Source of the DNA: an uncultured Oscillospiraceae bacterium
Lineage (GTDB): Bacteria > Bacillota > Clostridia > Oscillospirales > Oscillospiraceae
Assembly: GCA_944385125.1 (NCBI GenBank)
Contig: CALWVZ010000019.1
Span: 1 to 33,925, forward strand
Reading direction: 5' to 3'
Length of the DNA stretch: 33,925 nt
Of this stretch, positions 4,380-19,116 are shown piece after piece. The translations under genes were made by a program, and so were the position numbers. A model generated the notes under the pieces. That model worked only from the letters and a program-made list of their open reading frames with translations, was not told the DNA's origin and searched no databases. Each line of letters begins with the position of its first letter. Position 1 is the stretch's first letter.

Positions 4380-4408
4380 TTGACAAGGTAATGCATAGGT
4401 AATATAAT
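4380..4408 (+). promoter_or_regulatory. Consensus sigma-A promoter of the hyp-mbh operon
   Basis: TTGACA (4380-4385), exactly 17 bp, then TATAAT (4403-4408): both hexamers match the consensus fully. It lies 50 bp before the hypF ATG and is the only clear promoter upstream of the 13-kb operon. Confidence 0.85.
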
Positions 4409-4412
4409 TTGC

Positions 4413-4426
4413 TTGATAATTATCAA
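4413..4426. promoter_or_regulatory. FNR/CRP-like operator over the transcription start
   Basis: TTGATAATTATCAA is a perfect 14-bp palindrome that fits the FNR/CRP-family half-site TTGAT-N4-ATCAA. With TTTG and CAAA flanks the symmetry extends to 24 bp (4408-4431) with one mismatched pair. It begins 5 bp after the -10, over the expected start site, which predicts repression of an otherwise maximal promoter. The regulator itself is not in the window. Confidence 0.6.
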
Positions 4427-4457
4427 ACAAATTGCCTGCGTGCTTTGAGGTTCCCAT

Positions 4458-6680
4458 ATGAAGGAAAGGCTCTCTTTGAGAATCCACGGTATAGTCCAGG
4501 GCGTCGGCTTTCGGCCTTTTGTACACAAGCTGGTTCGCAACTATGGCTTACACGGATACATAAGGAATTGCTCCTCCGGGGTGGAGATGGAGCTGGAGGG
4601 GGAGCGAGAGAAGCTGGAGGAACTGCTGAGAGCGCTGCCGGAGAAAGCGCCCAGCCTGGCGCTCATCCAAGACATGGAGCACAGCTTCAGCAGGGAGCTT
4701 CAAGGCTTTGAAAGCTTTGAGATAATGAGGAGCAGCCGGGAGGAGCTCAACAACACTCTGGTCTCCCCGGACATCTGCATATGCGATGACTGTCTTAGAG
4801 AATTACGGGATAGAAGTGACAGAAGATACGGATATCCCTTCATAAACTGCACAAATTGCGGCCCAAGGTTCACCATTATCAAGGACCTGCCCTATGACAG
4901 GGCCAAGACCTCCATGGATGTTTTTCCCATGTGCCCTGACTGCGAGAGAGAGTATGGGGACATTGAAAACCGCCGCTACCACGCCCAGCCGGACTGCTGC
5001 GATAAATGCGGGCCCCGGGTCTTTTACCTTGACGGCGAGGGTAAGGAGCTGTGGGGAGACGGCATCCAACTGGCAAGAGAGAGGCTGAAAAAGGGCGGCA
5101 TAGTGGCGGTAAAGGGTCTGGGGGGCATTCACCTGGCCTGCCGCTGGGATGACGAGCGCCTGGTGAGAGAGCTGAGGAGGAGAAAGCAGAGGGACGAGAA
5201 GCCCTTTGCCCTTATGTGCCGGGATGTGGAATGCGCCAGGAAACTGTGCCTGGTGTCGCCGGCGGAAGAGAAATTGCTGGAGAGCTGTCAGCGGCCAATA
5301 GTGCTGCTGAGGAAAAAAGAGCCGGGGCTGGAGTATCTCAGTGAGAACGGCTATCTGGGACTTATGCTGCCCTACACGCCCCTCCACTATCTGCTCATGG
5401 GAGAGGACATCCCCATGCTGGTAATGACCAGCGCCAATCTTTCGGACACTCCGATAATGTATAAAAACAGTGAGGCCCTCAGGGACCTCCGGGGCATAGC
5501 CGACGGCTTTCTGCTCCATGACCGGGAGATACAGACCCGCTGCGACGATTCCCTGTGCTGGGAGCTGGAGGGGAAGGAATACTTTGCCCGGCGTTCCAGG
5601 GGCTATGTGCCCTACCCGCTGACGATGAGGCGGGAGCTTAAAAGCATACTGGCCTGCGGTGCGGAGCAAAAGGCCAGCTTTTGCCTGTCAAGGGGAAATT
5701 ACATTTTCCAGAGCCAGCATATAGGGGACCTGAAGAATATGGAGACTCTGGAGAACTACCGGCAGCAGACTGAACACTTCAAAAAACTGTTCGACATAGA
5801 GCCTGAGGCGGCGGCCTGCGATATGCACCCGGACTATTTGTCCACAGCTTTCGCCGAGAGCTTGGGTATACCCCTTATAAAGGTGCAGCACCACCACGCC
5901 CACATGTGCTCATGCATGGCGGACAACTCCCTGGAGGGAGAGGTGATCGGCCTGGCCTGGGACGGAACCGGGCTTGGGCTTGACGGTACGGCCTGGGGAG
6001 GAGAATGTCTGATAGGCGGCTATGGCGGCTTTGAGCGTTTCGGCCATATACTGCCCCTGGCAATGCCGGGCGGGGACCGGGCGGTAAAGGAGATAGACAG
6101 GCTGGCTTTCAGCCTGCTGGAGGCCTCAGGTCTGGACGGCTCACAGATAGCCGGAGCCGGTATATACAGAAAGATGCTGGAAACGGGGCTGAACTGCCCC
6201 CTGTCTTCCGGGATGGGGAGGCTCTTTGACGGAGCCGCCGCATTACTGGGCATAAGGAGCCAATGCAGCTATGAGGGCCAGGGGGCCGTGCTGCTGGAGG
6301 CGGCGGCTGCACAGGAGGAAGAGGGCCTGTATCCCTATAGGCTGGAAGGCCGCCCCCTGGTCTTTGACTGGCGGGAGATGATAAGGGCCATGGTCAGGGA
6401 GCTGGAGGAGGGACAGGGAGCGGGGCTTGTGGCCGCCCGCTTCATGAACACCCTGGTGGATATGGCCGCAGAGACGGCGGAAGCCGCCAGGCGGGAGACG
6501 GGGCTGGACAGGGTATGCCTCTCCGGGGGCAGCTTCCAGAACATGTACATAATGAGACGGCTGCCTGAGCGGTTGAGGGCCAGGGGCTTTCGGGTGTACC
6601 GCCACCGCCGGGTATCCTGCAATGACGAGGGGCTGGCTCTGGGCCAGCTGATGATAGCCGACGCCAGACTGAGGAGTTAA
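4458..6680 (+). CDS. hypF: [NiFe] hydrogenase maturation carbamoyltransferase HypF
   Basis: HypF makes the carbamoyl group that becomes the cyanide ligands of the NiFe active-site iron. The 740-residue product shows the full domain order. An acylphosphatase domain (about 1-90, GIVQGVGFRPFVHKL) is followed by two Zn-finger Cys pairs (CICDDC with CTNCGPRF; CPDCEREY with CCDKCGP), a YrdC-like domain that adenylates carbamoyl phosphate (about 200-380), and a Kae1-like domain (HHHAHMCSCMADN, AWDGTGLG). Length is normal. The ribosome site is weak (TGAGG). It is the first gene of the hydrogenase operon, behind a consensus promoter and palindromic operator. Confidence 0.97.
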   Translation: MKERLSLRIHGIVQGVGFRPFVHKLVRNYGLHGYIRNCSSGVEMELEGEREKLEELLRALPEKAPSLALIQDMEHSFSRELQGFESFEIMRSSREELNNTLVSPDICICDDCLRELRDRSDRRYGYPFINCTNCGPRFTIIKDLPYDRAKTSMDVFPMCPDCEREYGDIENRRYHAQPDCCDKCGPRVFYLDGEGKELWGDGIQLARERLKKGGIVAVKGLGGIHLACRWDDERLVRELRRRKQRDEKPFALMCRDVECARKLCLVSPAEEKLLESCQRPIVLLRKKEPGLEYLSENGYLGLMLPYTPLHYLLMGEDIPMLVMTSANLSDTPIMYKNSEALRDLRGIADGFLLHDREIQTRCDDSLCWELEGKEYFARRSRGYVPYPLTMRRELKSILACGAEQKASFCLSRGNYIFQSQHIGDLKNMETLENYRQQTEHFKKLFDIEPEAAACDMHPDYLSTAFAESLGIPLIKVQHHHAHMCSCMADNSLEGEVIGLAWDGTGLGLDGTAWGGECLIGGYGGFERFGHILPLAMPGGDRAVKEIDRLAFSLLEASGLDGSQIAGAGIYRKMLETGLNCPLSSGMGRLFDGAAALLGIRSQCSYEGQGAVLLEAAAAQEEEGLYPYRLEGRPLVFDWREMIRAMVRELEEGQGAGLVAARFMNTLVDMAAETAEAARRETGLDRVCLSGGSFQNMYIMRRLPERLRARGFRVYRHRRVSCNDEGLALGQLMIADARLRS

Positions 6681-6683
6681 AAG

Positions 6684-6905
6684 ATGTGCCTTGCAATACC
6701 GCTGAAAATAGTTGAGATAGAGGGAAAGGAAGCCCAGGGGGAGGCCCTGGGCATGAGGAGAAAGATAAGGCTTGACTTTATTAATGAGCCCAGAATAGGG
6801 GACTATGTGATGGTACACGCCGGTTTTGCCATTGAGCGGCTGGAGGAAAGTCAGGCTCTGGAGGATATAGAGGCCTGGGAGGAAATGGGAAATGCTCTGG
6901 AATAA
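6684..6905 (+). CDS. hypC: Hydrogenase maturation chaperone HypC
   Basis: HypC (73 residues) carries the Fe(CN)2CO unit with HypD and delivers it to the hydrogenase large subunit. It begins MCLAIPLKI; the Cys at position 2, essential in the family, is present, and GDYVMVHAGFAIERL matches the conserved C-terminal half. It starts 3 nt after hypF and overlaps hypD by 14 nt, so translation is probably coupled. Confidence 0.96.
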   Translation: MCLAIPLKIVEIEGKEAQGEALGMRRKIRLDFINEPRIGDYVMVHAGFAIERLEESQALEDIEAWEEMGNALE

Positions 6906-7968
6906 GGGGCAGAGAGACAGGCTGCTGGGAGAGATAGGAACCCGGGCCCAAAAGCCCATGAAGCTGATGGAGGTCTGCGGCAGCCACACTATGGCTATAG
7001 CCAAAAGCGGCATAAAGAGCCTGATGCCGGAAAATGTCAGCCTGTTATCCGGGCCGGGATGCCCGGTATGCGTGACGCCGGCGGAGGATATAGACAGGAT
7101 ACTGGCGCTGGCCATGGAGCCGGGGCTCACAATAGCCAGCTACGGCGATATGCTGAGAGTACCCGGCAGCGTCCCGGGAGACAGCCTGCAAAGGCGCCGG
7201 GCCCTGGGGGCAAGGGTAGAAGTGGTATATTCCGCCATGGACGCCCTGGAGCTGGCCGCCGCAGCCCCGGAGAGGGAAGTGCTGTTTTTGGCCGTGGGTT
7301 TTGAGACCACGGCTCCGGGTACGGCCGCTGCGGTGCTGGAGGCCAGGGAGCGGGGAATAAGAAACTTTTCCATCTTCTCCCTGCTGAAAAGCGTGGAACC
7401 GGCCCTGCGCAGCCTTATTGCCCGGGAGGATTTCAATATACAGGGCTTCATCTGCCCCGGCCATGTGGCCAGTATAATAGGGGAACAGGGCTTCCGCTTT
7501 ATCCCGGAGGAATATGGTCTGCCGGGAGTGATCGCAGGTTTTGAGCCGGAGGAGATACTGCTGGCCATATGCCGCCTTACCGGCCAGCTGGCAAGGGGAG
7601 AGGCCCGCCTGGAAAACTGCTACAAAAGAGCGGTCAGGCCGGAGGGAAATCCCCTGGCCAGAGCCGTGATGGACAGCTGCCTTCAACTCCGCAGGGACAG
7701 CTGGCGGGGTTTGGGAGAGATAGAAAACAGCGGCTTTAAACTGAGAGAGGAATTTGCAGACTTTGACGGGGAAAGGAAATTCCCTGTGGAGGTGGAGCTA
7801 CGCTCCGACTGCGCAGTCTGCCGCTGCGGGGATGTGATCTGCGGCAGGATAAGGCCGGAGGATTGCCCTATGTTCGGCGGAGGCTGTACGCCGGAGGACC
7901 CGCTGGGGCCCTGCATGGTGTCCTCGGAAGGGGCCTGCGCTGCGGAATATAAATACAGAGGTTTGTAA
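6892..7968 (+). CDS. hypD: Hydrogenase maturation protein HypD
   Basis: HypD is the iron-sulfur scaffold on which, together with HypC and HypE, the Fe(CN)2CO group is assembled. The 358-residue protein carries the conserved motifs MEVCGSHTMAI, GPGCPVCVTP and GFETTAPGTA. Its C-terminal cysteine cluster (CAVCRCGDVICG, DCPMFGGGC, GPCMVSSEGAC) binds the [4Fe-4S] centre. The start overlaps the end of hypC, and hypE follows after a single base. Confidence 0.97.
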   Translation: MLWNKGQRDRLLGEIGTRAQKPMKLMEVCGSHTMAIAKSGIKSLMPENVSLLSGPGCPVCVTPAEDIDRILALAMEPGLTIASYGDMLRVPGSVPGDSLQRRRALGARVEVVYSAMDALELAAAAPEREVLFLAVGFETTAPGTAAAVLEARERGIRNFSIFSLLKSVEPALRSLIAREDFNIQGFICPGHVASIIGEQGFRFIPEEYGLPGVIAGFEPEEILLAICRLTGQLARGEARLENCYKRAVRPEGNPLARAVMDSCLQLRRDSWRGLGEIENSGFKLREEFADFDGERKFPVEVELRSDCAVCRCGDVICGRIRPEDCPMFGGGCTPEDPLGPCMVSSEGACAAEYKYRGL

Positions 7969-7969
7969 G

Positions 7970-8968
7970 ATGGAAGATATCATAACTCTGGACTACGGCA
8001 GCGGGGGCAAGAAAAGCTCCCGCCTCATTGAAAAGCTGATATTGCCCAGGCTATTCAATCCGGCTCTGGGAGCCCTTGGAGACGGGGCCATAGTTGAGGG
8101 CGGAGAGAGGCTGGCGTTCTCCACCGACAGCTTTGTGGTGGACCCGCTGTTTTTCCCCGGCGGAGACATAGGCAAGCTGGCGGTCTGCGGCACGGTGAAC
8201 GACCTGTGCATGTGCGGAGCAGAGCCCAGATACCTCAGCTGCTCGTTGATAATCGAGGAGGGATTCAGTCTTGCCTCCCTGGAGAAGATAATAGACTCCA
8301 TGGCGGCCCAGTGTGAAAAGGCCCGGGTACAGGTGATAACCGGGGACACCAAGGTGGTGGAGAAGGGCCGGGGAGACGGAATATATATAAACACCGCCGG
8401 TATAGGCTTTATGAAATATCCCGGCCTTAGCCCGAAAAACATCCGGGAGGGAGATTCGGTCATCGTCTCCGGCTCTGTGGGAGACCATGGCACGGCGGTG
8501 ATGCTCTCCAGAAGCGGCATGATGCAGGGAGACATCAGCTCCGACTGCGCCAGCCTCAGAGAGCTGACGGAAAGAATGTTCCTGGTATCGGGAAAGATCC
8601 GGGCCCTCAGGGACCCCACCCGGGGCGGACTGGCCACTACTCTGAACGAATTTATAGAGGGAGGAGAGCTGGGCATAGAGCTGGAGGAAGAGCTAATCCC
8701 GGTTCGTCCCCAGGTGAGGGCCGCCTGCGAAATGCTGGGCCTGGACCCGCTGTACTGCGCCAACGAAGGGAAGCTCCTGGCGGTGGCAGCCCCGGAGGAC
8801 ACGGAAAAGCTGCTGGAGGCCATGAGGCAGACGCCGGAGGGGAAGGACGCCGTCCTTATCGGCCGGGTGACCCGGGAGCACCCGGGAACGCTGACAATAA
8901 AAACTGCTCTGGGGGGCAGACGTATTCTTCAAAAGCTCACGGGGGCGCAGCTGCCCAGGATATGTTAG
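7970..8968 (+). CDS. hypE: Hydrogenase maturation dehydratase HypE
   Basis: HypE dehydrates the carbamoyl group received from HypF to a thiocyanate on its C-terminal cysteine, the source of the cyanide ligands. The 332-residue protein starts with the ATP-binding motif DYGSGGKKSSRLI, carries the PurM-like segments VNDLCMCGAEP and DPTRGGLATTLNE, and ends in the family's invariant PRIC, so the acceptor cysteine is present. It is the last gene of the leading hyp block; the hydrogenase structural genes start 62 bp later with no terminator between. Confidence 0.97.
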   Translation: MEDIITLDYGSGGKKSSRLIEKLILPRLFNPALGALGDGAIVEGGERLAFSTDSFVVDPLFFPGGDIGKLAVCGTVNDLCMCGAEPRYLSCSLIIEEGFSLASLEKIIDSMAAQCEKARVQVITGDTKVVEKGRGDGIYINTAGIGFMKYPGLSPKNIREGDSVIVSGSVGDHGTAVMLSRSGMMQGDISSDCASLRELTERMFLVSGKIRALRDPTRGGLATTLNEFIEGGELGIELEEELIPVRPQVRAACEMLGLDPLYCANEGKLLAVAAPEDTEKLLEAMRQTPEGKDAVLIGRVTREHPGTLTIKTALGGRRILQKLTGAQLPRIC

Positions 8969-9030
8969 CTATAGGCGCAGGGTATTGGATCATAAGCTGA
9001 ATCGTGGACATTAAAGAAGAGGTGAAAGGG

Positions 9031-9432
9031 ATGCAGGAATACAAAAGAATAGATATTTCCAAGGAACAGATAGTCCCGCTGGCGGAACGGATGCGCCGGG
9101 AGGGGCGGCAGCTGGTGATGATACACGGCTTCATAAACAAGGAGGGACAGCCGGATATTTCCTACGACTACGCAGTGGACCCGGCTATTGAATCCTACCA
9201 CGTGGTGGGAGAGACCCAGCTCCCGTCCATCGGCCAAATCTACGACACTGCCGCCACCTGGCCGGAGCGGGAGCTCAACGAGCTTTTTGCCGTGGAGTTC
9301 CAGGGCCTGGACACTTCAAAGAGACTGTTCCTGCCGGAGGACATGCTGGAGACCCAGGGCAAAGGCCAGATAATGGTGCTGCCGCTGAAAGAACTTGTGG
9401 AGAAAAATCTGGGAGGAGGAGACGCCAAATGA
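9031..9432 (+). CDS. mbhK: Hydrogenase 30-kDa-type subunit (MbhK/NuoC-like)
   Basis: This 133-residue soluble protein is the NuoC/HycE N-terminal-like subunit that packs against the catalytic large subunit of group 4 hydrogenases. The matching region includes VMIHGFINKEGQPDISYDYA, LPSIGQIYDTAATWPERELNELFAVEF and the terminal PLKELVEKN. I chose the ATG at 9031, with GAGGTG in front; a GTG at 9004 in the same frame has no good site. It overlaps the large-subunit gene by 4 nt. It binds no metal and is assigned by similarity and position. Confidence 0.88.
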   Translation: MQEYKRIDISKEQIVPLAERMRREGRQLVMIHGFINKEGQPDISYDYAVDPAIESYHVVGETQLPSIGQIYDTAATWPERELNELFAVEFQGLDTSKRLFLPEDMLETQGKGQIMVLPLKELVEKNLGGGDAK

Positions 9433-10511
9433 GCTACATAGTACCCATCGGCCCCTATCATCCAGCTCTGGAGGAGCCCATACATGCAAAGCTCTACACA
9501 GAGGGAGAAATAATAAGGGATGCGGAGGTCTTCGTCGGCTACAACCACCGGGGCATAGAGAAGCTGGCTACCGAGAGGAACGCCATCCAGACCCTGGTGT
9601 TGGTGGAGAGAGTCTGCGGTATCTGTTCCCATTCCCACGCTTTCGCTTACGCCATGTGCGTGGAGGCCATAAACGGCCTGGAGGCGCCCAAGCGGGGAGA
9701 GTACATAAGAGTGATAACTGCCGAGCTGGAAAGGCTCCACTCCCATTTCCTGTGGCTGGGCATAGCCTGCCACATCATCGGCCATGACAGCCTGTTCATG
9801 CACATCTGGGACGAGCGGGAGCTGGTGATGGACATCCTGGAGAAGATGACCGGCAATCGGGTCAATTACGCTATGGTCACCATAGGCGGGGCTCGCCGGG
9901 ACATCAGCGACGACTTGAGAAGAGAGATACTTGCAGCCGGTGAAAAGCTCAAGAGTATTATGGACCGCATTGCCGAGATAGCTACCACCGACAAGACCAT
10001 TGCCCTGCGCACCAAGGGCGTGGGAGTGCTTACCAGGGAGGACGCCTTGCGCATGGGCGCCATAGGTCCCCACGCAAGAGCCTCCGGGGTGGATGTGGAC
10101 GTGCGACGGGACGCCCCCTATTCCTCCTATGGGGACTTTGAATTCAAGGTGCCTGTGGTAGACAGCGGGGACGTATATGCCAGGGTGTTGGTGCGGGTGC
10201 TGGAATGCTACGAGAGCATAAATATAATCCGCCAGGCGCTGGAAATGCTGCCGGAAGGCCCCATAAACCTGGGCAATAAGCTGCCCAAAATAAAGGAGGG
10301 CCAGGCAGTCTGCCGCCACGAAGCCCCCAGGGGCCAGCTGAGCCACATGGTGGTGGGGGACGGAGGTTTCAACAACCACCGGGTGAGCATCCATGTCCCA
10401 AGCTATAAGAACACTCCCACGGTGCCCCATATGCTCAGAGGCAATACCGTGGCGGACGCAGGGCTGATAATTGCCAGCATAGACCCCTGCTTCAGCTGCC
10501 TGGACAGATAA
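9429..10511 (+). CDS. mbhL: Group 4 [NiFe] hydrogenase large (catalytic) subunit
   Basis: This 360-residue NuoD/HycE-like subunit should hold the NiFe site that reduces protons to H2. Both ligand pairs are present: the N-terminal RVCGICSHSH (Cys63, Cys66) and the C-terminal DPCFSC (Cys354, Cys357). That separates it from complex I NuoD and Mbx-type subunits, which lack them. The chain ends DPCFSCLDR, directly after the motif. Most hydrogenases have a C-terminal extension here that a protease removes after nickel insertion; this one has none, as known for CooH-type enzymes, and no protease gene occurs nearby. Closest to the membrane-bound (Mbh) type, given the Mrp genes that follow. Confidence 0.95.
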   Translation: MSYIVPIGPYHPALEEPIHAKLYTEGEIIRDAEVFVGYNHRGIEKLATERNAIQTLVLVERVCGICSHSHAFAYAMCVEAINGLEAPKRGEYIRVITAELERLHSHFLWLGIACHIIGHDSLFMHIWDERELVMDILEKMTGNRVNYAMVTIGGARRDISDDLRREILAAGEKLKSIMDRIAEIATTDKTIALRTKGVGVLTREDALRMGAIGPHARASGVDVDVRRDAPYSSYGDFEFKVPVVDSGDVYARVLVRVLECYESINIIRQALEMLPEGPINLGNKLPKIKEGQAVCRHEAPRGQLSHMVVGDGGFNNHRVSIHVPSYKNTPTVPHMLRGNTVADAGLIIASIDPCFSCLDR

Positions 10512-10512
10512 G

Positions 10513-10854
10513 ATGCACGAGCTGGCTATCACAGAAGCGGTCATCGAACTGATAAACAGGGAGGCCCGGGACAAGGGCTTCGGCAAGGTGCTGGGCATCA
10601 GCCTGCGGGTGGGAGAGTATTCCGGCATAATCCCGGAATGCATCAGAGAGTTTTTTCCCATAGCCGCCAGGGACAGCATCGCCCGGGAGGCGGAGCTGGA
10701 GATCGTCACCGTGCCCGCCGTCTTCCGCTGTCTTGACTGCGGATACGAGGGAGCGGCGGACAGAAGAGCCGCCTGCTGCCCCCGATGCAAAAGCCGGGAG
10801 ATACGCATGTGTTCCGGCCGAGAATTTTACGTTGACAGTCTCAAAGTCGAATAG
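10513..10854 (+). CDS. hypA: Nickel-insertion metallochaperone HypA
   Basis: HypA (113 residues) binds nickel through its N-terminal MHE (His2 present) and delivers it to the large subunit. The zinc site is formed by CLDCGYEG and CCPRCKS. It starts one base after the large-subunit stop codon, a position that ties nickel delivery to synthesis of its client. The usual GTPase partner HypB is not encoded in this window. Confidence 0.95.
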   Translation: MHELAITEAVIELINREARDKGFGKVLGISLRVGEYSGIIPECIREFFPIAARDSIAREAELEIVTVPAVFRCLDCGYEGAADRRAACCPRCKSREIRMCSGREFYVDSLKVE

Positions 10855-10905
10855 ACGAGGAAAAAAGCCGGGGCGAGACCCGGCCATGAAAGGAGTGCTT
10901 CCCAC

Positions 10906-11427
10906 TTGCATAAGACAAGCTTTGGGGGGGTGGCGTCCACCTTCCTGCTGTGCTTTATTTTCTGGATACTGCTGACCTGGTCGGCAGAGCCCCAGGAGCT
11001 GGCCACGGGGGCGGTTATCAGCCTGGCAGTGGCCCTGTTCTCCTCCCGCTTTTTCATCCACGACAAACCGGGCTGGTTCTTCAGGCCCGCAAAGCTCCTT
11101 AACGGCATATTCTTCTGGCTGTGCATTTTCCCGGTGGAGCTGGTGAAGGCCAATGTGGACGTGGCAAAACGCTGCTTTACCGGCTGCAAAAACGTCAATC
11201 CCGGCATCGTGAAAGTGCCGGTTGACCTTAAATCAATGTATGGCCAGGCGGCCCTGGCCAACGCCATTACCCTGACTCCCGGCACCATCACCATGGAGAT
11301 AACTGAGGAGGAGGGACAGACCTATTACTATATCCATTGGATAGACGCCAGGCTCCCCGGCGGAGAAGAGGCCGGCGAGGAGATAAAAGGCAGGCTTGAG
11401 AGAGGACTCAGGAGGGTTTGGGAATGA
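10906..11427 (+). CDS. mbhA: MrpE/MbhA-like antiporter subunit
   Basis: This 173-residue membrane protein is homologous to MrpE (MnhE), a small subunit of multisubunit Na+/H+ antiporters. Early helices (LLCFIFWILLTWS, AVISLAVALFSS) are followed by the family's soluble tail with TLTPGTITMEI. The start appears to be TTG at 10906, behind AAAGGAG; the ATG at 10886 is in another frame. mrpF overlaps its end in an ATGA junction. In Mbh hydrogenases this block forms the sodium-translocating half of the membrane arm. Confidence 0.88.
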   Translation: MHKTSFGGVASTFLLCFIFWILLTWSAEPQELATGAVISLAVALFSSRFFIHDKPGWFFRPAKLLNGIFFWLCIFPVELVKANVDVAKRCFTGCKNVNPGIVKVPVDLKSMYGQAALANAITLTPGTITMEITEEEGQTYYYIHWIDARLPGGEEAGEEIKGRLERGLRRVWE

Positions 11428-11711
11428 AAGATCTTATAATCTTTTCCGTGTGCCTGGGCTTTGTTGCCCTGCTGAACATTTACAGGATGATAAAGGGGCC
11501 TACGGCCGCCGACAGGATGGTGGCTGCCGACTGCACGGATATACTTATATCCCTGGCAATGATGCTCTTTTCCCTCTACAGCGGCAGGGGCATATACCTG
11601 GACATAGCAATAATCACCGCCATGCTGGGCATTATCAACACTATGCTGGTTGGCAGATATCTGGACAAGGGGAGGTGGCTGTATCATGCTGATACTGAGG
11701 ATAGCGATTGA
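11424..11711 (+). CDS. mbhB: MrpF/MbhB-like antiporter subunit
   Basis: A 95-residue protein with three hydrophobic helices and the MrpF signature MIKGPTAADRMVAADCTDIL. The ATG at 11424 overlaps the mrpE stop codon and has GGAGGG in front. The end overlaps the next gene by 26 nt. Confidence 0.88.
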   Translation: MKDLIIFSVCLGFVALLNIYRMIKGPTAADRMVAADCTDILISLAMMLFSLYSGRGIYLDIAIITAMLGIINTMLVGRYLDKGRWLYHADTEDSD

Positions 11712-12033
11712 CCTGCTTATAGCGATCGGCTTGATTTTTGCCCTGGCGGGCACCCTGGGCGTGATGCGTATGCCGGACACCTTCTGCCGCATGCAGGCCA
11801 GCACCTGCGTCACTACCCTGGGCGTGATAGGCGTGGGCCTGGGCGCCCTGCTGTACACCATTTTCATAATGGGCAGCGCCGCCACTGCGGTGAAGGTGCT
11901 GGTGATCTGCGGCCTGGTGCTGGTGACCAATCCCGTGGGCGCCCACGCCATAGCCAAGGGAGCCTATCAGGCAGGAATACGTCCTGACAAGGAGATGGAG
12001 ACGGAGGATTACAGGAGGGACTTTGATGAGTGA
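11686..12033 (+). CDS. mbhC: MrpG/MbhC-like antiporter subunit
   Basis: A 115-residue MrpG homologue with three hydrophobic segments and the family core GTLGVMRMPDTFCRMQAST. The chosen ATG at 11686 follows GGAGGTGG; an upstream in-frame start at 11650 lies deep inside mrpF and lacks a site. The charged C-terminus overlaps the next gene by 8 nt. Confidence 0.88.
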   Translation: MLILRIAIDLLIAIGLIFALAGTLGVMRMPDTFCRMQASTCVTTLGVIGVGLGALLYTIFIMGSAATAVKVLVICGLVLVTNPVGAHAIAKGAYQAGIRPDKEMETEDYRRDFDE

Positions 12034-12280
12034 GATTATTGTTGTTCTGAACGTCCTTATAATCCTGGGGATGGTGGTCTCCGCCATTCTGGCGGTGCAG
12101 TTTGAAAAGCTCCTCTCCTCGGTAATAGCCCTGGGAGTGACGGGCATCTTTGCCGCTGCGGAGTTCCTGCTGCTCCACGCTCCCGACGTGGCTATCTCAG
12201 AGGCTGCGGTTGGCGCCGCCCTCAGCCCCCTGATATTCATCGTCACACTGAAAAAAATACGGGGAGGGGACGATAAATGA
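12026..12280 (+). CDS. mbhD: MbhD-like subunit (DUF4040, MrpA C-terminal-like)
   Basis: An 84-residue protein of three hydrophobic segments corresponding to part of the MrpA C-terminal region, encoded separately as MbhD in membrane-bound hydrogenases. The motif [21 protein letters not shown] is diagnostic. AGGAGGG lies 6 nt before the ATG. It overlaps the next gene by 4 nt. A free-standing DUF4040 protein fits Mbh/Mbx complexes better than plain Mrp antiporters, where it is fused to MrpA. Confidence 0.87.
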
Positions 12281-12642
12281 AAAAACTCCTTACTTACTTC
12301 TCCCTGCTGGTGTTCCTGGCGGTGGGCGTCTATGCCGCCGCAGAGATGGCCGCCATGCCCCGGACCTACGAAGGGCAGGAGGCCGCCGTGCCGGTTCGAG
12401 AACTGCTGGAGGAGCCCTCCTCCTATGATGACGGCGGCGCCGACGGCGTGGCCGCCGCTATAGTGCAGCAGAACCTGGAAAAGACCCACGCCATAAATGA
12501 TGTTACTTCCATAGTCTTTGACTTCAGAGGTTACGACACCATGGGCGAGGCCTTCATACTGATGACCGCCGTCACCGGGGCCGTGGTCATCCTCTACACA
12601 AGGAAGACGGGGAAAAAGGAGGTGGACAGGGATGAAAAATGA
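12277..12642 (+). CDS. mbhE: MbhE-like subunit
   Basis: A 121-residue protein with an N-terminal helix, a soluble loop, and a second helix before a basic tail. The segment [21 protein letters not shown] is typical of MbhE and of the end of MrpA. Stop and start codons overlap on both sides, so translation is tightly coupled. Confidence 0.85.
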
Positions 12643-13096
12643 GGACATCCGCATTAAAAGGGTCATACAGCGCTGCGGCTGCGACGCCATACTCCCCCTG
12701 GCCCTGGTATATATCTTCTACATTATTCTCCATGGCCATCTCTCCCCCGGCGGCGGCTTCCAGGGCGGCGTGCTGATGGTGGCTACCCTGCTGCTTATAT
12801 ACCTGGGACACGGCTATGCCGTCACCGCCCAGGCTATGCGCCCCAAACTGCTGCGCAAGGTGGAAGGCCTGGCCCTGGCAGCCTATATCCTGCTGGCCCT
12901 GCTGGGCGTGGCCCTGGGTTCCCGCTTCTGCGAAAATGTGTTCTACCAGCTGGGCCAGCCGGGGGAGCTGTTCAGCACCGGCACCATCTTCCTTATGGGC
13001 ACGGTGGTAGGGATCGAAGTCCTGGCGGGAGTCAGCGCCCTGGTGATAAACATGCTGGGCGTGCTGCTGGGCAAGGATGTGGACCACAGGGAATGA
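12632..13096 (+). CDS. mbhF: MrpB/MbhF-like antiporter subunit
   Basis: A 154-residue MnhB-domain protein with four hydrophobic helices. The motif [17 protein letters not shown] is the MrpB signature; [16 protein letters not shown] matches its C-terminal half. It starts 11 nt before the mbhE stop and ends 11 nt before mrpC. Confidence 0.9.
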
Positions 13097-13107
13097 GGTG
13101 ATACGAA

Positions 13108-13458
13108 ATGATACTGCTTAACTACATTGCAGCGTTCTTCCTTATCGGCCTGGGCATGTACGCCATCGTCACAAAATATAACCTGGTGAAAACCGTTATA
13201 GGCTTGTCCATTGCAGACTACGGAGTGAACCTGCTGCTTATCTCCATAGGCTTTAACCCGGGGGGCACAGCGCCTATCTTCACCTGGTCAGAGCTGGATT
13301 ACAACAGCTTCTTCGTAGACCCGGTGCCCCAGGCCCTTACCCTCACCAGCATAGTCATCGGCGCTTGCGTCACCGCCATGTCCCTGGCCCTGGTCATTAA
13401 ACTGGAGGAACAGTACGGCACCATCGATACACGGCAGATAAGGAGGCTGAGAGGATGA
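13108..13458 (+). CDS. mbhG: MrpC/MbhG-like subunit (NuoK homologue)
   Basis: A 116-residue MrpC/NuoK-like protein with three helices. IGLGMYAIVTKYNLVKTVIGL and DPVPQALTLTSIVIGACVTA are the family's conserved regions, the latter the usual DPLPQALVLTAIVI motif. It overlaps the next gene by 4 nt. Confidence 0.92.
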   Translation: MILLNYIAAFFLIGLGMYAIVTKYNLVKTVIGLSIADYGVNLLLISIGFNPGGTAPIFTWSELDYNSFFVDPVPQALTLTSIVIGACVTAMSLALVIKLEEQYGTIDTRQIRRLRG

Positions 13459-15371
13459 ATATGCTAGGAAATATTCTCAACTACCAGCACTTTCCCATAT
13501 ACGCCATTATGGTGCTGTTCCTGGGCTCCTTCCTTATCGCCGCCTTTGGGGAAAACAGGGCGGTCCGCAATGTCCTGGCCCTGCTGAGCATCACAGCAGC
13601 CCTGGGCTTCGCCGTCGCCCTGGTAAAGCCGGTACTGCTGGAGGGCGAGATAATATCCTATTGGATGGGCGCAAGAGAACCCGCCGGAGGCTATGCCATT
13701 GGCATTGCCCTGGAGGTGGATGCCCTCAGCCTTTTCTTTGCCCTGCTGGTGGCTACCGCCGTCTTCGTTTCCGGGGTCTACTCCATCCAGTACATGAACC
13801 GGGACCACAACGAAAAAGAGTACTACACCCTGTATCTGCTGCTTTGCGGAGGCGTCATGGGCATGGTGCTCTCCGGCGACCTGTTCAACATGTTCATAAT
13901 GGTGGAGATACTCACCTTTGCCGCCGTGGCCCTCACCGCTTTCCGCAACACCGTGAGAGGGGCGGTGGAGGCTGCCTTCAAGTATCTGGTGGTGGGCTGT
14001 ATGGGCTCCACCTGTATCCTGGTGGGCACTGCCATCCTCTACGCCCAGACCCACACCCTTAACCTGGCCCAGCTGGCTCAGCTGGTGCCCGGAGAGGTGA
14101 ACACCGCCACCAAGCTGGCCTTTGCGCTGCTGTTCGTGGGATTTGGCACCAAGGCCTTCATCGTGCCCTTCCACCCACTGGCCGCCGACGCCCACGGCGC
14201 CGCTCCGGCCTCCATCTCCGTTATCATCTCCGGCGTGCTCACCAAGTCCGGCATTTACGGCATCATCCGCATCACCTATTTCCTCTTCCAGAGCATGGGA
14301 CTGGGAACCGTGCAGTTCCTGCTGGTGTTTATCGGCTCTTTGAGCATGTTCGTGTGCGTCACCATGGCTCTGGCTCAGCATGATTTCAAACGTCTGCTGG
14401 CCTTCCACAGCATATCCCAGATAGGCTATGTGCTCACCGCCGTGGGCCTGTGTACCGCCCTGGGCGTGTCCGCCGGGCTTTACCACGCCATAAACCACAC
14501 CCTATTCAAGGGCCTGCTGTTCCTGGCCGCCGGCGCCGTGCTCCACGAGACCGGCACCACGGACCTGAACAAACTGGGGGGCCTGGCAAAGAAAATGCCC
14601 CACACCACGGTACTGTTTCTGATAGGCGCCTTCTCTATCAGCGGAGTGCCGCCCTTCAACGGCTTTGCCTCCAAGTGGATGATATACCAGGCCAGCTATC
14701 AGAAAGCGGTAGAGAGCGGCAACATCGGCTTTCTGCTGGTGACGATCATTGCCCTTGTAACCTCCGTGCTCACCCTGGCCTCCTTCGTAAAGGTGAGCCA
14801 CTCGGTGTTCTTTGGGCAGCTGCCCCCGGAACTGGAAAATGTCAGGGAGGTCTCCTGGGGCATGCGCTTTGCAATGGGCATCTTTGCCCTGCTGTGCATA
14901 ATCACCGGGCTGTTCCCCAATCTGGTCACGGCCTATCTCACCGAGCCTGCCGCCGCTGCGGTGTTCAGCGTAAAGCCGTACATAGAGGCTATGGGCTTTG
15001 ACGGCTCCGCCGCAGCCGCCCTGGAGGGCGGGAGCTTCCAGTGTGTGGGGGCCTGGGACCCGGTGAGCTGGCTGCTGGTGCTGTGCATCGCTCTGCTGGC
15101 CATAACCATAGTGGCTGTGGCCGGAAAGTACGACAATGTGAGCCGCTGCAGGCTATCCACCGTGGAGGACAAATACCAGCTCTTCTACGGCGGAGAAAAG
15201 CAGGAGCTCTCTCAGCTGGGAGGCGACGACCTGTTCTGGGGCTTCAAGCATAACTGGCGGGCTTACTTCAACTATATGCACCGGCTCCACAGCGGCATCG
15301 TCAATGACTATGCCCTCTGGGCAGTGGTCGACCTGGCCCTGGTCACGCTGTTTAGCCTGATAGTTCTGTAA
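13455..15371 (+). CDS. mbhH: MrpD/MbhH-like ion-pumping subunit with long C-terminal tail
   Basis: This 638-residue protein is an antiporter-like subunit of the NuoL/M/N and MrpD type. The proton-path residues are present: Glu151 in FNMFIMVEIL and Lys264 in SGVLTKSGIYGI, after the PFHPLAADAHGAAPAS loop. Typical MrpD or MbhH proteins are near 490-510 residues. The extra 120 or so residues hold a helix (SWLLVLCIALLAITIVAV), a charged segment that could form an amphipathic helix, and a last helix (ALWAVVDLALVTLFSLIVL). That layout resembles the lateral-helix tail of NuoL, or MbhI, the separate subunit otherwise missing from this operon. A MbhH-MbhI fusion is my inference. Confidence 0.9.
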   Translation: MNMLGNILNYQHFPIYAIMVLFLGSFLIAAFGENRAVRNVLALLSITAALGFAVALVKPVLLEGEIISYWMGAREPAGGYAIGIALEVDALSLFFALLVATAVFVSGVYSIQYMNRDHNEKEYYTLYLLLCGGVMGMVLSGDLFNMFIMVEILTFAAVALTAFRNTVRGAVEAAFKYLVVGCMGSTCILVGTAILYAQTHTLNLAQLAQLVPGEVNTATKLAFALLFVGFGTKAFIVPFHPLAADAHGAAPASISVIISGVLTKSGIYGIIRITYFLFQSMGLGTVQFLLVFIGSLSMFVCVTMALAQHDFKRLLAFHSISQIGYVLTAVGLCTALGVSAGLYHAINHTLFKGLLFLAAGAVLHETGTTDLNKLGGLAKKMPHTTVLFLIGAFSISGVPPFNGFASKWMIYQASYQKAVESGNIGFLLVTIIALVTSVLTLASFVKVSHSVFFGQLPPELENVREVSWGMRFAMGIFALLCIITGLFPNLVTAYLTEPAAAAVFSVKPYIEAMGFDGSAAAALEGGSFQCVGAWDPVSWLLVLCIALLAITIVAVAGKYDNVSRCRLSTVEDKYQLFYGGEKQELSQLGGDDLFWGFKHNWRAYFNYMHRLHSGIVNDYALWAVVDLALVTLFSLIVL

Positions 15372-15383
15372 GGAGGTGGGACA

Positions 15384-16355
15384 ATGACTATAGTTATAGA
15401 AGCTTTGCAGTATCTGGGCTATGTGCTCATTTTTCCCGGCTTCCTGTTTTGCTTTTTGGCCGGGATGCTGCTGTGCGGTATTGACAGGAAGCTGGTGGCC
15501 AAAATGCAAAAGCGCGTGGGACCGCCTGTCCTCCAGCCCTTTTATGATTTCTTCAAGCTCTGCGGCAAGGAGACCATTGTTCCCGCCGCTGCCGAACGCA
15601 TCACTTTTATGCTCTCTCCCCTGGTGGGACTTGCCGCTCTGGTGGTGATCCAGCTTTTTATCCCGGTATTCGGCTTTACAGCCTTTTCAGGCATCGGGGA
15701 TATTATCGTGATACTGTATCTGCTGTTGGTGCCTGCGCTGGCTATGATACTGGGCGGCGCCGCCTCAGGCTCTCCCTATGCCGGGGTGGGACTCAGCCGG
15801 GAGATGGTGACCATAATCTCCTGTGAACTGCCTTTGGTACTGGTGCTGCTGGCAGTGGCGAAAACCGTGGGCAGCGCCATAGGCACGGGGCTGTGCTTCT
15901 CCCTCAGCGAGATAGCGGAATACCAGCTGGTAAACGGCAGCCTTATAACAAAGATAAGCATGCTGCCCGCAGCGGCGGCCATGCTGCTGATAATCCCCGG
16001 CGAGACCGGAAACCACCCCTTCGACGCCGCTGAGGCGGAGACGGAGATCTGCGAGGGCATGCTGGCGGAATACAGCGGCGCGCCTTTGGGAGTGTTCAAG
16101 CTCAGCCACGCCGTGAAGATGCTCAGCCTCACCTCCCTGTTCGTGGCCCTGTTCCTGGGCGGCCTGGGCACCGGGATCATGGCCCTGGATGCGCTGCTGC
16201 TGTTCGTGCTCTGCGCTCTTATTACAGCGGCGTCCATATCCTTTGTCCACGCCTTTACTGCAAGACTCAAGATCGAGCAGATATTCAAATACTACTGGAC
16301 CGTGGTGTCGCTGCTGGCGCTTATCAGCCTGGTCCTGGCCTGGTACGGTCTGTAA
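15384..16355 (+). CDS. mbhM: NuoH/MbhM-like membrane subunit
   Basis: This 323-residue protein with about eight hydrophobic helices is the complex I subunit 1 homologue that anchors the peripheral arm and links electron transfer to ion movement. The conserved DRKLVAKMQKRVGPPVLQP loop and the acidic loop HPFDAAEAETEICEGMLAEY are both intact. GGAGG precedes the ATG and the gene follows mbhH by 12 nt. Confidence 0.93.
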   Translation: MTIVIEALQYLGYVLIFPGFLFCFLAGMLLCGIDRKLVAKMQKRVGPPVLQPFYDFFKLCGKETIVPAAAERITFMLSPLVGLAALVVIQLFIPVFGFTAFSGIGDIIVILYLLLVPALAMILGGAASGSPYAGVGLSREMVTIISCELPLVLVLLAVAKTVGSAIGTGLCFSLSEIAEYQLVNGSLITKISMLPAAAAMLLIIPGETGNHPFDAAEAETEICEGMLAEYSGAPLGVFKLSHAVKMLSLTSLFVALFLGGLGTGIMALDALLLFVLCALITAASISFVHAFTARLKIEQIFKYYWTVVSLLALISLVLAWYGL

Positions 16356-16367
16356 GGAGGGATAGCT

Positions 16368-16811
16368 ATGTTCAAGAAACTCATTGAGGAGAGCACGGGC
16401 AAGTCCCCCTGGCTGTTCCACATAAACGCCGGCTCCTGCAACGGCTGTGACATCGAGCTGGTCAGCGTGCTCACCCCCCGCTACGATGCCGAGCGCCTGG
16501 GCTTCAAGCTGGCCGGTTCTCCCCGCCATGCGGACATAGTGGTGGTCACGGGACCCGTGACCAAGCAGTCCCTGCCCAGAGTGCTGAGAGCCATATCCCA
16601 GGTGCCGGAACCCCGGTGCATTGTTACCATGGGCTCCTGCCCCCAGTCGGGTAACGTGTTCAGAGGCAGCTACAGCGTGGCTGGTCCCCTGAGCAAATAT
16701 GTGGATGTGGATGTGGACGTGGCCGGATGCGCACCAAAGCCAGAGGCGATCATTGACGGTCTGGCTCTGGCGGCAAAGATACTGAAAGAGAAAAGGGGGC
16801 GGAAAAAGTAA
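16368..16811 (+). CDS. mbhJ: Hydrogenase small subunit (MbhJ/NuoB-like)
   Basis: A 147-residue NuoB-like subunit that carries the [4Fe-4S] cluster closest to the NiFe centre. Its four ligands are visible: Cys24 and Cys27 in NAGSCNGCDIEL, Cys91 in MGSCPQSG and Cys121 in GCAPKPE. The length suits the short group 4 small subunit, with no additional clusters. It overlaps the next start codon by one base. Confidence 0.95.
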   Translation: MFKKLIEESTGKSPWLFHINAGSCNGCDIELVSVLTPRYDAERLGFKLAGSPRHADIVVVTGPVTKQSLPRVLRAISQVPEPRCIVTMGSCPQSGNVFRGSYSVAGPLSKYVDVDVDVAGCAPKPEAIIDGLALAAKILKEKRGRKK

Positions 16812-17443
16812 TGGATTTTCCCTTTATGAAAGAGGCGCTGAGCCAGCTGTTCAGCAAGAGCAGCTGCGCCATGTACCCCGCCGTCCCCAGTGAGGCGGCT
16901 CCCGGCTACAGGGGCAGGATAATATACCACCCGGAGCGCTGCATAGCCTGCGGCATGTGCGAGAGAGTCTGCTCCGGCAATGCCATCACCCGCACGGTGG
17001 AGCATCTGGAGGAGGGACAGGATAAGATAACGCTGACTTTCAATCTGGGTTCCTGCACCTTCTGCGCCACCTGTGCCGATTTCTGCGCAAAGCAGGCTAT
17101 CGAATTCACCGGGGACTACCACATGGTTGCCACCAAGGAAGAGGATCTGCTGGTCAGCGGCAGCTTTATAAAGGCGGCTCCCAAAAAGAAGGCTCCGGCG
17201 GCCGACAAGTCCCAGGGCTGCCAGGCTCCCGCTTCTGGCGGACCCACGGTAAAGCCCAGGGATGACGGCAAGCCGGTGAATGATCCGGCCCGCTGCGTCT
17301 ACTGCACCCTCTGCGCCAGAAAGTGCCCCGTACAGGCCCTGACGGTGGACAGGGCCGCCAAGACCTGGACGCTGGATGAGGACAAATGCATAGCCTGCGG
17401 CAGCTGCGCCCAGGCCTGCCCCAAAAACTGCATCATCATTTGA
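16811..17443 (+). CDS. mbhN: NuoI/MbhN-like polyferredoxin subunit with extra 2x[4Fe-4S] module
   Basis: This 210-residue protein is the NuoI-like subunit that takes electrons from ferredoxin. The usual two CxxCxxCxxxC motifs sit at residues 44-54 and 82-92. After a linker of about 40 residues rich in Lys, Ala and Pro, two further complete motifs occur at 162-172 and 193-203, the last followed by an extra Cys207. Ordinary MbhN and EchF proteins are about 120-140 residues with two clusters, so a bacterial-type 2[4Fe-4S] ferredoxin seems fused to the C-terminus. It may be a tethered electron carrier or a docking site for another donor. It is the last gene of the operon, before a strong terminator. 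Confidence 0.92.
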   Translation: MDFPFMKEALSQLFSKSSCAMYPAVPSEAAPGYRGRIIYHPERCIACGMCERVCSGNAITRTVEHLEEGQDKITLTFNLGSCTFCATCADFCAKQAIEFTGDYHMVATKEEDLLVSGSFIKAAPKKKAPAADKSQGCQAPASGGPTVKPRDDGKPVNDPARCVYCTLCARKCPVQALTVDRAAKTWTLDEDKCIACGSCAQACPKNCIII

Positions 17444-17504
17444 ATATGCCCGCCCGGGACACAGGCGGGAATCCACGGAAACAGATGAAAAAGCATACAC
17501 GGAT

Positions 17505-17545
17505 AAGGCCCTGCTCTCTGAAGACGGAGAGCAGGGCCTTTTAAT
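17505..17545 (+). terminator. Terminator of the hyp-mbh operon
   Basis: A perfect 14-bp stem (AAGGCCCTGCTCTC / GAGAGCAGGGCCTT) with an 8-nt loop is followed by TTAAT. It lies 61 nt after the mbhN stop. Confidence 0.85.
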
Positions 17546-17691
17546 ATTAAGCTTTTATACCCAGCGATTTTCCAGCTTATCCCGGAATGTTGCAGCGGCC
17601 GGCGGATTGCCGCCGGGGATAAATGATACAGGGCCGGCAGACAATAAGCAGGGGAACAAAAATGAAGCCGGTTCAGAGAAGGAGATGCATA

Positions 17692-19116
17692 ATGGATTCT
17701 ATTTGGAGCAGAACCTGCCATATACCCAGGAGGGAAAAGCTGAGGGGAGAAGTCAGAAGCCAGGCCGCAGTTATAGGCGCAGGCATGGCGGGGATATTGA
17801 TTGCCTCGGCATTGCAGGAGGCCGGACTGGAGGTGAAGGTCCTGGAGTCAAGACGCATTGCCGGGGGCCAGAGCCGGAACACCACGGCCAAGATAACGGC
17901 CCAGCACGGCCTTATATATCGGCGGCTGATAGACGATGTGGGCATGGACAGGGCAAGACAGTACGCCCAGGCAAACCAGGAGGCAGTGGACAGCCTGAGG
18001 CGTATCGTGGCAGACAGGGGGATAGACTGCGACTTTGAGGAGCGCAGCGCCTATGTTTACGGCAATGGTCTGGAGCAGCTGGAGCGGGAACTGACGGCAG
18101 CCAGGATGCTGGGGCTGCCGGCCTCTTTTGTGGAGCTGCCGGCAGCCGCTGCCGGAGCAGTTGCCTTCAGCAATCAGGCTCAGTTCAACCCTCTGAAGTT
18201 TATCGGCAGCCTGTCTCAGGAGCTGAAGATATACGAGGAAAGCCCGGTAAAGGAGATACGGGAAAACAGGCTGATAACGCCGGAGGGATGGCTGGAGGCT
18301 GAGCATATAATATTTGCCTGCCACTATCCCTTTGTAAACTTCCCGGGCATGTATTTCACCCGAATGCACCAGGAACGCTCCTATGTTCTGGCCCTGGAGG
18401 TGGAACGCCCCCTGGAAGGCATGTGGATCTCCGCAGAAAAGGGCGGATATTCCCTGAGAAATTACAAGGGAATGCAGTTTATAGGCGGAGAAAATCACAG
18501 GGCCGGGGAGAACCGGGAGGGCGGCTGCTATGACAGACTGCGCCGAAAGGCGGCGGAGCTCTTCCCCGGTAGCCGGGAGCTGGCCTGTTGGTCCGCTCAG
18601 GACTGTATCACCGCCGACGGCATACCCTATATAGGCGGTTTTTCCCCGGACAGGCCGAACTGGTATGTGGCCACAGGATTCAACAAATGGGGAATGAGCA
18701 GTTCCATGGTGTCGGCAAAGCTGATAAGGTCTATGGTCTTGGGAGAAAAGCCGGCCTGCGCAGAGGTTTTTGACCCCGGACGCTTTGATGTGGATACAGT
18801 GGCCGGAGCTGTGGCGGAAGGAGTCCAGGCAGTCAAGGGCTATGCAAAACGCTTTTTCCAGATACCGGCAAAAGCCGCCGCAGGGATAGCTCCCGGACAG
18901 GGCGGCATAGTGTTCCTTGAGGGGGAAAAGCTGGGAGTTTACAGGGACGGAGAGGGGAGGCTCCACCCGGTGGACATCCGCTGCCCACATCTGGGCTGCC
19001 AGCTGGAGTGGAACAGCGATGGGCTCAGCTGGGACTGTCCCTGCCACGGCTCCCGCTTCGACGCCTATGGGCATATAATATCAGGCCCGGCCCAGGAGGA
19101 TGCGGGGGGCAGATAA
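17692..19116 (+). CDS. FAD-dependent oxidoreductase with C-terminal Rieske domain
   Basis: This 474-residue protein joins a DAO-type flavin oxidoreductase domain to a Rieske [2Fe-2S] domain. The dinucleotide-binding motif is AAVIGAGMAGILIASALQEAG near residues 25-45, with GGQSRNTTAKITAQHGLIY after it. The conserved ATGFNKWGMSSSM is present near residue 345. The Rieske ligands are CPHLGC and CPCHGS near the C-terminus. The ATG at 17692 is chosen because GAAGGAGA precedes it at 8 nt; upstream in-frame ATGs lack a site. The family is common in Clostridia and its substrate is unknown. It follows the hydrogenase terminator on the same strand, so a redox link is possible but not shown. Confidence 0.9.
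   Translation: MDSIWSRTCHIPRREKLRGEVRSQAAVIGAGMAGILIASALQEAGLEVKVLESRRIAGGQSRNTTAKITAQHGLIYRRLIDDVGMDRARQYAQANQEAVDSLRRIVADRGIDCDFEERSAYVYGNGLEQLERELTAARMLGLPASFVELPAAAAGAVAFSNQAQFNPLKFIGSLSQELKIYEESPVKEIRENRLITPEGWLEAEHIIFACHYPFVNFPGMYFTRMHQERSYVLALEVERPLEGMWISAEKGGYSLRNYKGMQFIGGENHRAGENREGGCYDRLRRKAAELFPGSRELACWSAQDCITADGIPYIGGFSPDRPNWYVATGFNKWGMSSSMVSAKLIRSMVLGEKPACAEVFDPGRFDVDTVAGAVAEGVQAVKGYAKRFFQIPAKAAAGIAPGQGGIVFLEGEKLGVYRDGEGRLHPVDIRCPHLGCQLEWNSDGLSWDCPCHGSRFDAYGHIISGPAQEDAGGR

Follow-up and report, generated by a model that had tools for sequence, protein, structure and literature searches.

Organization of the operon

The stretch of DNA analysed here (the window) is an entire contig of 33,925 nucleotides (CALWVZ010000019.1; C19) from an uncultured Oscillospiraceae bacterium (assembly GCA_944385125.1), the genome of which comprises 2.02 Mb in 86 contigs and is 75.9% complete. 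It contains an operon of 18 plus-strand genes (4458–17443) that is predicted to encode an energy-converting [NiFe] hydrogenase. The product of the last gene, the NuoI-like subunit MbhN, ends in a linker, flexible in the structural model, and a complete 2[4Fe-4S] ferredoxin domain. This ferredoxin arm, which was missed in an earlier note on the same DNA, is the most interesting part of the operon.

The earlier note had described eighteen plus-strand genes with gaps below 65 bp between one consensus promoter and one strong terminator, and this organization is borne out. All 18 genes are present and match the expected families in searches with Pfam and NCBIfam profiles, and the intergenic gaps span −26 to 62 bp, values that depend on the start codons chosen for mbhK (GTG 9004 or ATG 9031) and mbhA (TTG 10906). 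The features, in the order of the operon, are as follows.

4380..4408, +, sigma-70-type promoter TTGACA-17-TATAAT (12/12; similar match upstream of hypF in relatives)
4458..6680, +, hypF, carbamoyltransferase for NiFe cyanide ligands (TIGR00143, 765 bits, above cut-off)
6684..6905, +, hypC, chaperone (TIGR00074, above cut-off)
6892..7968, +, hypD (TIGR00075, above cut-off)
7970..8968, +, hypE (TIGR02124, above cut-off)
9004..9432, +, NuoC/MbhK-like 30-kDa subunit, start GTG 9004 or ATG 9031 (PF00329)
9429..10511, +, MbhL, catalytic [NiFe] large subunit, 360 amino acids (aa) (L1/L2 motifs; 6cfw)
9609–9638, +, MbhL L1 motif RVCGICSHSH
10482–10508, +, MbhL L2 motif DPCFSCLDR, no C-terminal extension
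10513..10854, +, hypA, nickel chaperone (TIGR00100, above cut-off)
10906..11427, +, MbhA/MrpE-like, TTG start (PF01899)
11418..11711, +, MbhB/MrpF-like, start TTG 11418 or ATG 11424 (PF04066)
11686..12033, +, MbhC/MrpG-like (PF03334; TIGR01300 above cut-off)
12026..12280, +, MbhD (PF13244)
12277..12642, +, MbhE (PF20501, barely: 27.2 bits against a cut-off of 27)
12632..13096, +, MbhF/MrpB-like (PF04039)
13108..13458, +, MbhG/MrpC-like (PF00420)
13455..15371, +, MbhH/MrpD-like antiporter subunit with MbhI-like C-terminus, 638 aa (profile, 6cfw, MbhH tree, AlphaFold)
15048..15353, +, MbhI-like part of the fusion, aa 532–633 (phmmer match to 6cfw_I, E 0.0016; separate gene in L162/L170)
15384..16355, +, MbhM/NuoH-like (PF00146; 6cfw_M)
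16368..16811, +, MbhJ/NuoB-like small subunit (PF01058; 6cfw_J)
16811..17443, +, MbhN/NuoI-like subunit with ferredoxin arm, 210 aa, four CxxCxxC (profiles, motifs)
17177..17257, +, flexible linker of MbhN, about aa 123–149 (predicted local distance difference test, pLDDT, below 50 at aa 126–145; composition)
17258..17440, +, tethered 2[4Fe-4S] ferredoxin domain, aa 150–210 (PF12838/PF13187; pLDDT 84–90; dN/dS)
17505..17540, +, intrinsic terminator, 16-pair stem, 10 of the pairs G-C

Promoter-like matches are at chance level overall (8 found, mean 7.8 expected), but only that upstream of hypF is perfect, the second best scoring 10. Furthermore, among 62 relatives, 37 have a match of at least 10/12 in the 200 bp that precede hypF, compared with 2 of 62 shuffled controls, and four relatives likewise have a 12/12 promoter there. 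Internal plus-strand promoter-like matches (at 9347, 14875 and 15675) score 9/12. The possibility that internal terminators split the operon was rejected: among the 25 terminator-like matches found on both strands (13.6 expected), no internal plus-strand match is comparable to that at 17505–17540.

A search for relatives of the operon yielded 112 loci (designated by L numbers), of which the best 80, many of them partial, were kept; all counts of 80 refer to these. The nearest named relatives are metagenome-assembled genomes (MAGs) filed as Oscillospiraceae, Ruminococcaceae and Clostridiales, Candidatus Limivicinus and Scatomorpha among them, and many carry rumen or gut sample names. An MbhL match is present in 19 of 200 genomes drawn from the family, at 72–100% identity in 12 of the 19 (own genome included). 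The gene order is broken in none of the 80 relatives, and all 35 that have the 18 genes intact have them in order. A few contain insertions or long gaps between operon genes, the largest in L035, L043–045 and L032. The insertions between hypF and hypC in L044 (1911–5363) and L045 (3854–7305) carry minus-strand frames, one LysR-like and one with a start like that of an own-genome Fe-S protein at L195; the insertion at the same place in L035 (2759–6892) contains one frame that resembles LysR and another, the start of which is rich in His (all named by eye).

The ferredoxin arm of MbhN

The 210-aa MbhN protein contains four CxxCxxC motifs, compared with two in the NuoI core. More than two such motifs are found in 63 of 67 MbhN frames of the relatives; the other four either leave the contig inside the linker (L041 and L048) or stop there (L068 and L075). 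L009, L041, L048 and L071 were left out of the arm counts on account of a frameshift or contig end. Tree data are available for 64 complete copies, that of the window among them: one extra domain is present in 49, two in 6, three in 7 and none in 2, with at least eight changes of domain number on the tree. The linkers are 20–132 aa long and consist largely of Ala (36%), Pro (22%), Lys (15%) and Glu (10%; 3038 residues from the 56 of 65 copies that could be parsed).

In the AlphaFold model of MbhN (predicted template modelling score 0.45), a disordered linker connects two ordered regions, so that the arm is flexible in the model. The pLDDT is 57–75 in the first 40 residues, 85–90 at aa 41–100, 68–85 at aa 101–120, below 50 in the linker and 84–90 in the arm domain. 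In 17 pairs of relatives, both the core and the arm domain show low nonsynonymous (dN) compared with synonymous (dS) divergence, and the linker evolves faster in most; for the tethered domain of the window and that of L003, dN is 0.029 and dS is 1.09. The tethered domain is thus under purifying selection.

Two observations concern multiplication of the domain. In L055, the first and second tethered domains are identical over the compared stretch, which we take as a sign of recent tandem duplication, and the last domains of the seven three-domain MbhN proteins cluster together (Shimodaira–Hasegawa-like approximate likelihood ratio test, SH-aLRT, 89).

Distribution and origin of the arms

The arms are not confined to MbhN. 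Within the same order (Oscillospirales), EchF carries arms of one to three domains in 9 of the 15 Ech loci seen (L096, L097, L098, L134–136, L141, L143, L184), and in one of these loci (L134, 842–1483; also L235) the NuoC-like subunit of Ech, encoded next to an arm-bearing EchF, has a fused ferredoxin domain of its own. A tree of the domains unites the EchF cores and the tethered domains in a single set (SH-aLRT 97*, 75 rows, one distant own-genome row included; here and below an asterisk marks values that reach the support threshold), apart from the MbhN cores; this tree was built from 59 columns only by a quick method and carries a long-branch warning. No other match to the arm domain above 44% identity was found in the own genome among the matches listed. 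Nor were arms found outside the order in any of 94 comparator rows, chosen non-randomly from the best MbhL matches and counted without a motif filter (75 genomes, 19 of them with two rows). An occurrence of arms throughout the phylum was not seen in this sample. Among the titles and abstract openings listed from an open-access library, none describes ferredoxin arms on Mbh or Ech.

Catalytic core, maturation genes and the Mrp-like module

All four NiFe-binding cysteines of MbhL are present, in the motifs RVCGICSHSH and DPCFSCLDR, and the L1 motif as well as DPCFSC is found in 80/80 relatives; given the intact cysteines, an Mbs- or Mbx-like enzyme without a NiFe site can be ruled out. The partners of a group 4 enzyme, namely NuoB-, NuoH-, NuoI- and antiporter-like proteins, were all detected with Pfam and NCBIfam profiles. 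With the matches to the Mrp/Mbh families and the structural matches and MbhH grouping described below, these features provide good support for a hydrogenase of the energy-converting [NiFe] type that includes a complete Mrp-type module.

The claim that the hydrogenase has its own maturation genes holds for hypF-C-D-E and hypA, which are part of the operon, but hypB is encoded on another contig (C23). There is no gene for a maturation protease among the 18 operon genes. This does not amount to a defect because MbhL ends at the L2 motif, leaving no C-terminal peptide to cut, and the protease is unneeded.

The best Protein Data Bank (PDB) matches for MbhL, MbhH, MbhM and MbhJ are those of the Pyrococcus furiosus membrane-bound hydrogenase, MBH (6cfw). 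For MbhN the best matches are polyferredoxins, which outrank 6cfw_N (rank 13) because of the ferredoxin arm.

The set of Mbh homologues, which the earlier note had called full, is complete at the level of families, except that mbhI is not a separate gene because it is fused to mbhH. Residues 532–633 of MbhH match 6cfw_I in a phmmer search (E 0.0016), and in L162 and L170 the MbhI-like part is a separate gene directly 3' of mbhH; loss of MbhI was thus ruled out. The AlphaFold model of MbhH is good in the antiporter part, with 6cfw_H as the best match (template modelling score 0.91 on the target), but poor at aa 557–617, and therefore we do not claim a lateral helix from the model. Among the charged MbhH residues that line up with Pyrococcus MbhH, E151 is nearly invariant and K233, K264, H348, K352 and K407 are invariant in 38 MbhH rows; presumably, these residues have a role in ion transport.

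Affinities of the hydrogenase

The comparator loci come from the same phylum and were typed by gene neighbourhood or, for short loci, by position in the MbhL tree: three-antiporter (L148–161, 163, 164), Mrp-type with separate mbhI (L162, L170), CooM-like (L165–167), Ech (L168, L169, L171–178, L181–184) and Hyc-like (L179–180).

The earlier note proposed a phylogeny of the large subunit as a check of its Mbh-type assignment. In the resulting MbhL tree, the gut sequences form a clade of their own (100/99*), and Pyrococcus MbhL joins L162 and L170 (95/97*) outside this clade, with the deeper forks left open. Approximately unbiased (AU) tests on MbhL do not reject a union of the gut clade with the Pyrococcus type (p 0.424), with the three-antiporter type (p 0.414) or with the two together (p 0.426). 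The MbhH tree, which includes CooM rows, has the gut clade, Pyrococcus and L162/L170 in one group (95/96*). By contrast, the tree of MbhL, MbhM and MbhJ together (L+M+J) places the gut clade with the CooM-like loci (93/97, below the asterisk threshold). A CooH-type kinship of the catalytic module is suggested by L+M+J but not by MbhL alone. Forcing the gut clade to the Pyrococcus type in L+M+J costs 17.2 log units, a marginal rejection (AU p 0.043); joining the gut clade, the Pyrococcus type and the CooM-like loci is not rejected (AU p 0.291). Furthermore, the gene order is unlike that of the Mrp-type relatives L162 and L170, and the blocks H-M-J-N and K-L-hypA are shared with the CooM-type loci, although the K matches are weak and hypA is found in 2/3 loci.

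Taken together, the trees and gene blocks make a mosaic enzyme possible, with a catalytic module of the CooM type and an Mrp module of the Mbh type, but do not prove it; the P. furiosus branch is long. The alternative of a genuine group 4d Mbh that came from archaea or thermophiles and was simply reordered agrees with the grouping of MbhH with its Pyrococcus counterpart and is not rejected by the AU test on MbhL, but is at odds with the L+M+J placement, with the marginal rejection of a union with the Pyrococcus type alone and with the CooM-type blocks. We consider it unlikely, though the most serious of the alternatives. The earlier interpretation as an Mbh-type enzyme is therefore supported in part: it stands for the Mrp module and MbhH, but not as a strict group 4d assignment, being right in kind and too narrow in class.

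Proposed electron path and alternative readings

The soluble ferredoxins of this genome and its relatives have a mean net charge of −8 (n=18, range −9 to −6; 18 of 20 ferredoxin loci parsed). The tethered domains of Mbh have a mean charge of +2.1 (n=43 from 24 proteins, range −1 to +4; +3 in the window), or +1.2 when 73 longer slices are used, and those of Ech +1.5 (n=15, range −6 to +5); the net charge of the MbhN cores is −2. The own genome also contains two rnfC matches above the cut-off and a [FeFe]-hydrogenase domain. The former imply ferredoxin-based energetics in the same genome, and with the latter suggest that ferredoxin may have other outlets.

Given these observations, we propose, with slightly more confidence than doubt, that the operon encodes a ferredoxin-oxidising, H2-forming, ion-pumping [NiFe] complex in which a swinging ferredoxin arm takes up electrons from soluble ferredoxin, an acidic protein. 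The tethered domain, being slightly basic, would be the landing site for reduced soluble ferredoxin, and the leash would let it swing the electrons to the enzyme; relatives have one, two or three such domains per MbhN chain. From the tethered domain, electrons would pass through the two MbhN clusters and the MbhJ cluster to the NiFe site of MbhL, and MbhM, MbhH-I and the Mrp-like module (MbhA-G) would transport the ions. The gene content, the synteny, the intact NiFe and Fe-S cysteines and the anatomy, conservation, charge and modelled flexibility of the arm are observations, and the electron path and its direction, the ion (Na+ or H+) and the relay role of the arm are predictions. Hung on Ala/Pro-rich linkers, the arms would resemble the lipoyl arms of pyruvate dehydrogenase.

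Several observations speak against this proposal. The linker in the window is milder in composition than most, with 59% A+P+K+E compared with 81% in linkers, 24% in cores and 25% in the window proteins tested. The sample of soluble ferredoxins is biased, its members having been collected by their similarity to a single acidic query sequence. Armed and armless MbhN cores are both acidic, so that charge fails to explain the existence of the arm; the Ech cores of the order are basic on average, again whether armed or armless. The related idea that the arms compensate for lost basic charge of the MbhN core is unsupported, armless copies being equally acidic. L068 and L075 are complete yet lack a tethered domain, and the sister clade L145–147 has just an Ala/Lys-rich tail in its place, so that the arm is not essential to the enzyme. 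Finally, the placement of MbhL is undecided.

These armless loci, which retain the operon genes, and the 94 armless comparator rows from outside the order are what would be expected if this were an ordinary Mrp-linked hydrogenase in which soluble ferredoxin docks directly on the MbhN core and the arm serves to store electrons or is a dispensable addition. Nevertheless, at least one domain is kept in 62 of the 64 complete copies and is under purifying selection, and the core on which ferredoxin would have to dock is acidic like ferredoxin itself; we therefore regard this reading as rather improbable, slightly more so than a group 4d origin. Reverse operation in the gut, with an ion gradient driving H2 oxidation and yielding reduced ferredoxin, appears more doubtful still. 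Related Ech enzymes are described in HydDB as reversible under physiological conditions (PMC5037454), but no family-named open reading frame (ORF) of the window suggests a ferredoxin-consuming autotrophic pathway, and no match to TIGR01702, the carbon monoxide dehydrogenase (CODH) family, was found in the own genome, both weak points. The missing CODH also speaks for the swinging-arm proposal, with the reservation that the genome is 76% complete. The least probable alternative is that the arm, by itself a whole 2[4Fe-4S] ferredoxin on a flexible tether, replaces soluble ferredoxin, docks directly on a donor (for example pyruvate:ferredoxin oxidoreductase) and channels electrons to the hydrogenase, given that it is slightly basic, unlike the compared soluble ferredoxins, and that the genome retains an acidic soluble ferredoxin.

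Relation to known systems

The P. furiosus MBH (HydDB group 4d) shares with the gut enzyme the subunit families, including the Mrp-like module, the top PDB matches for four subunits and the MbhH clade. The gut operon differs in gene order, the mbhH-mbhI fusion, the arm on MbhN and the presence of hyp genes inside the operon, and neither the MbhL nor the L+M+J tree supports a sister relation of the catalytic modules. L162 and L170 resemble P. furiosus in gene order. The CooMKLXUH-type CO-linked hydrogenase (HydDB group 4c; L165–167, so labelled after their 1290-aa CooM-like protein) is similar in L+M+J and in gene blocks; the gut operon differs from it in having a full Mrp module and no giant CooM, in a genome in which, at 75.9% completeness, CODH was not found. 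Ech (group 4e) of the same order has the same kind of arm, with the domains of both enzymes and the EchF cores forming one set, but L182, L184 and L233–236 have no Mrp A-G matches, and L134/L235 bears an arm on the NuoC-like subunit too.

The closest parallel that was found is RnfB of the RNF complex, which has a ferredoxin-like domain on a flexible tether and a C-terminal domain that contains a variable number of [4Fe-4S] clusters and accepts electrons from soluble ferredoxin (PMC12174285). It belongs to another enzyme and consists of other domains, and the available part of that paper does not describe repeated domains on Ala/Pro linkers of a NuoI-like subunit.

Mrp-Mbh-like group 4 enzymes in Clostridia are already known from print, a Mrp-bearing enzyme of Saganbacteria having been related to those of Pelobacter propionicus and Clostridia in the accessible portion of PMC6349859. 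As far as the consulted sections of the following sources go, HydDB treats 4d as ferredoxin-coupled and Mrp-linked and 4g as a loose, uncharacterised group (PMC5037454), subgroups of 4g have been described (PMC7886697), and the group 4g enzymes of Cloacimonadota and Omnitrophota are likewise Mrp-linked and predicted to use ferredoxin (PMC8542988). A rumen survey lists groups 4a, 4c, 4e, 4f and 4g; in sheep rumen, 4g, a functionally unresolved class, ranks among those with the highest RNA/DNA ratios (PMC6776011).

On a broader scale, we tentatively suggest, as a scenario that falls somewhat short of even likelihood, that the energy-converting hydrogenases of gut Oscillospirales evolved swinging arms of one to three slightly basic EchF-type 2[4Fe-4S] domains on Ala/Pro-rich linkers. 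Domain shuffling would have spread these arms between Ech and the Mrp-linked enzyme, with repeated gains and losses, and their role would be to collect electrons from soluble ferredoxin, which is acidic. The hydrogenase with the Mrp module would then be the CooM-type/Mbh-type mosaic and may belong to the highly expressed rumen group 4g.

Rumen and gut hydrogenases help to set how much H2 reaches methanogens. The 18-gene operon for an Mrp-linked hydrogenase is conserved across dozens of related MAGs, many from rumen or gut, and its product is a testable candidate for ferredoxin-driven ion pumping there. The natural series of arms, with 0, 1, 2 or 3 domains and linkers of 20–132 aa, could be used to ask whether an enzyme becomes faster when an electron carrier is tethered to it; such arms might represent a design rule for electron delivery to hydrogenases.

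Neighboring genes

On the upstream side, the operon is adjoined by a gene for an SNF-family sodium symporter (2312–3886, +), with a related gene at the same locus in many related contigs. Just 3' of the terminator, a fusion of a FAD-dependent oxidoreductase with a Rieske domain is encoded (17623–19116, +). The organism had been described as spore-forming, which is compatible with a SpoVAC/SpoVAEB gene (229–951, +) but has no support beyond that gene, the sole sporulation family among the window ORFs searched. Further downstream, a 752-aa protein has a glycosyl hydrolase family 5 match (23695–25953, −), and the N- and C-terminal domains of HipA are split over two adjacent genes (29700–30985, −).

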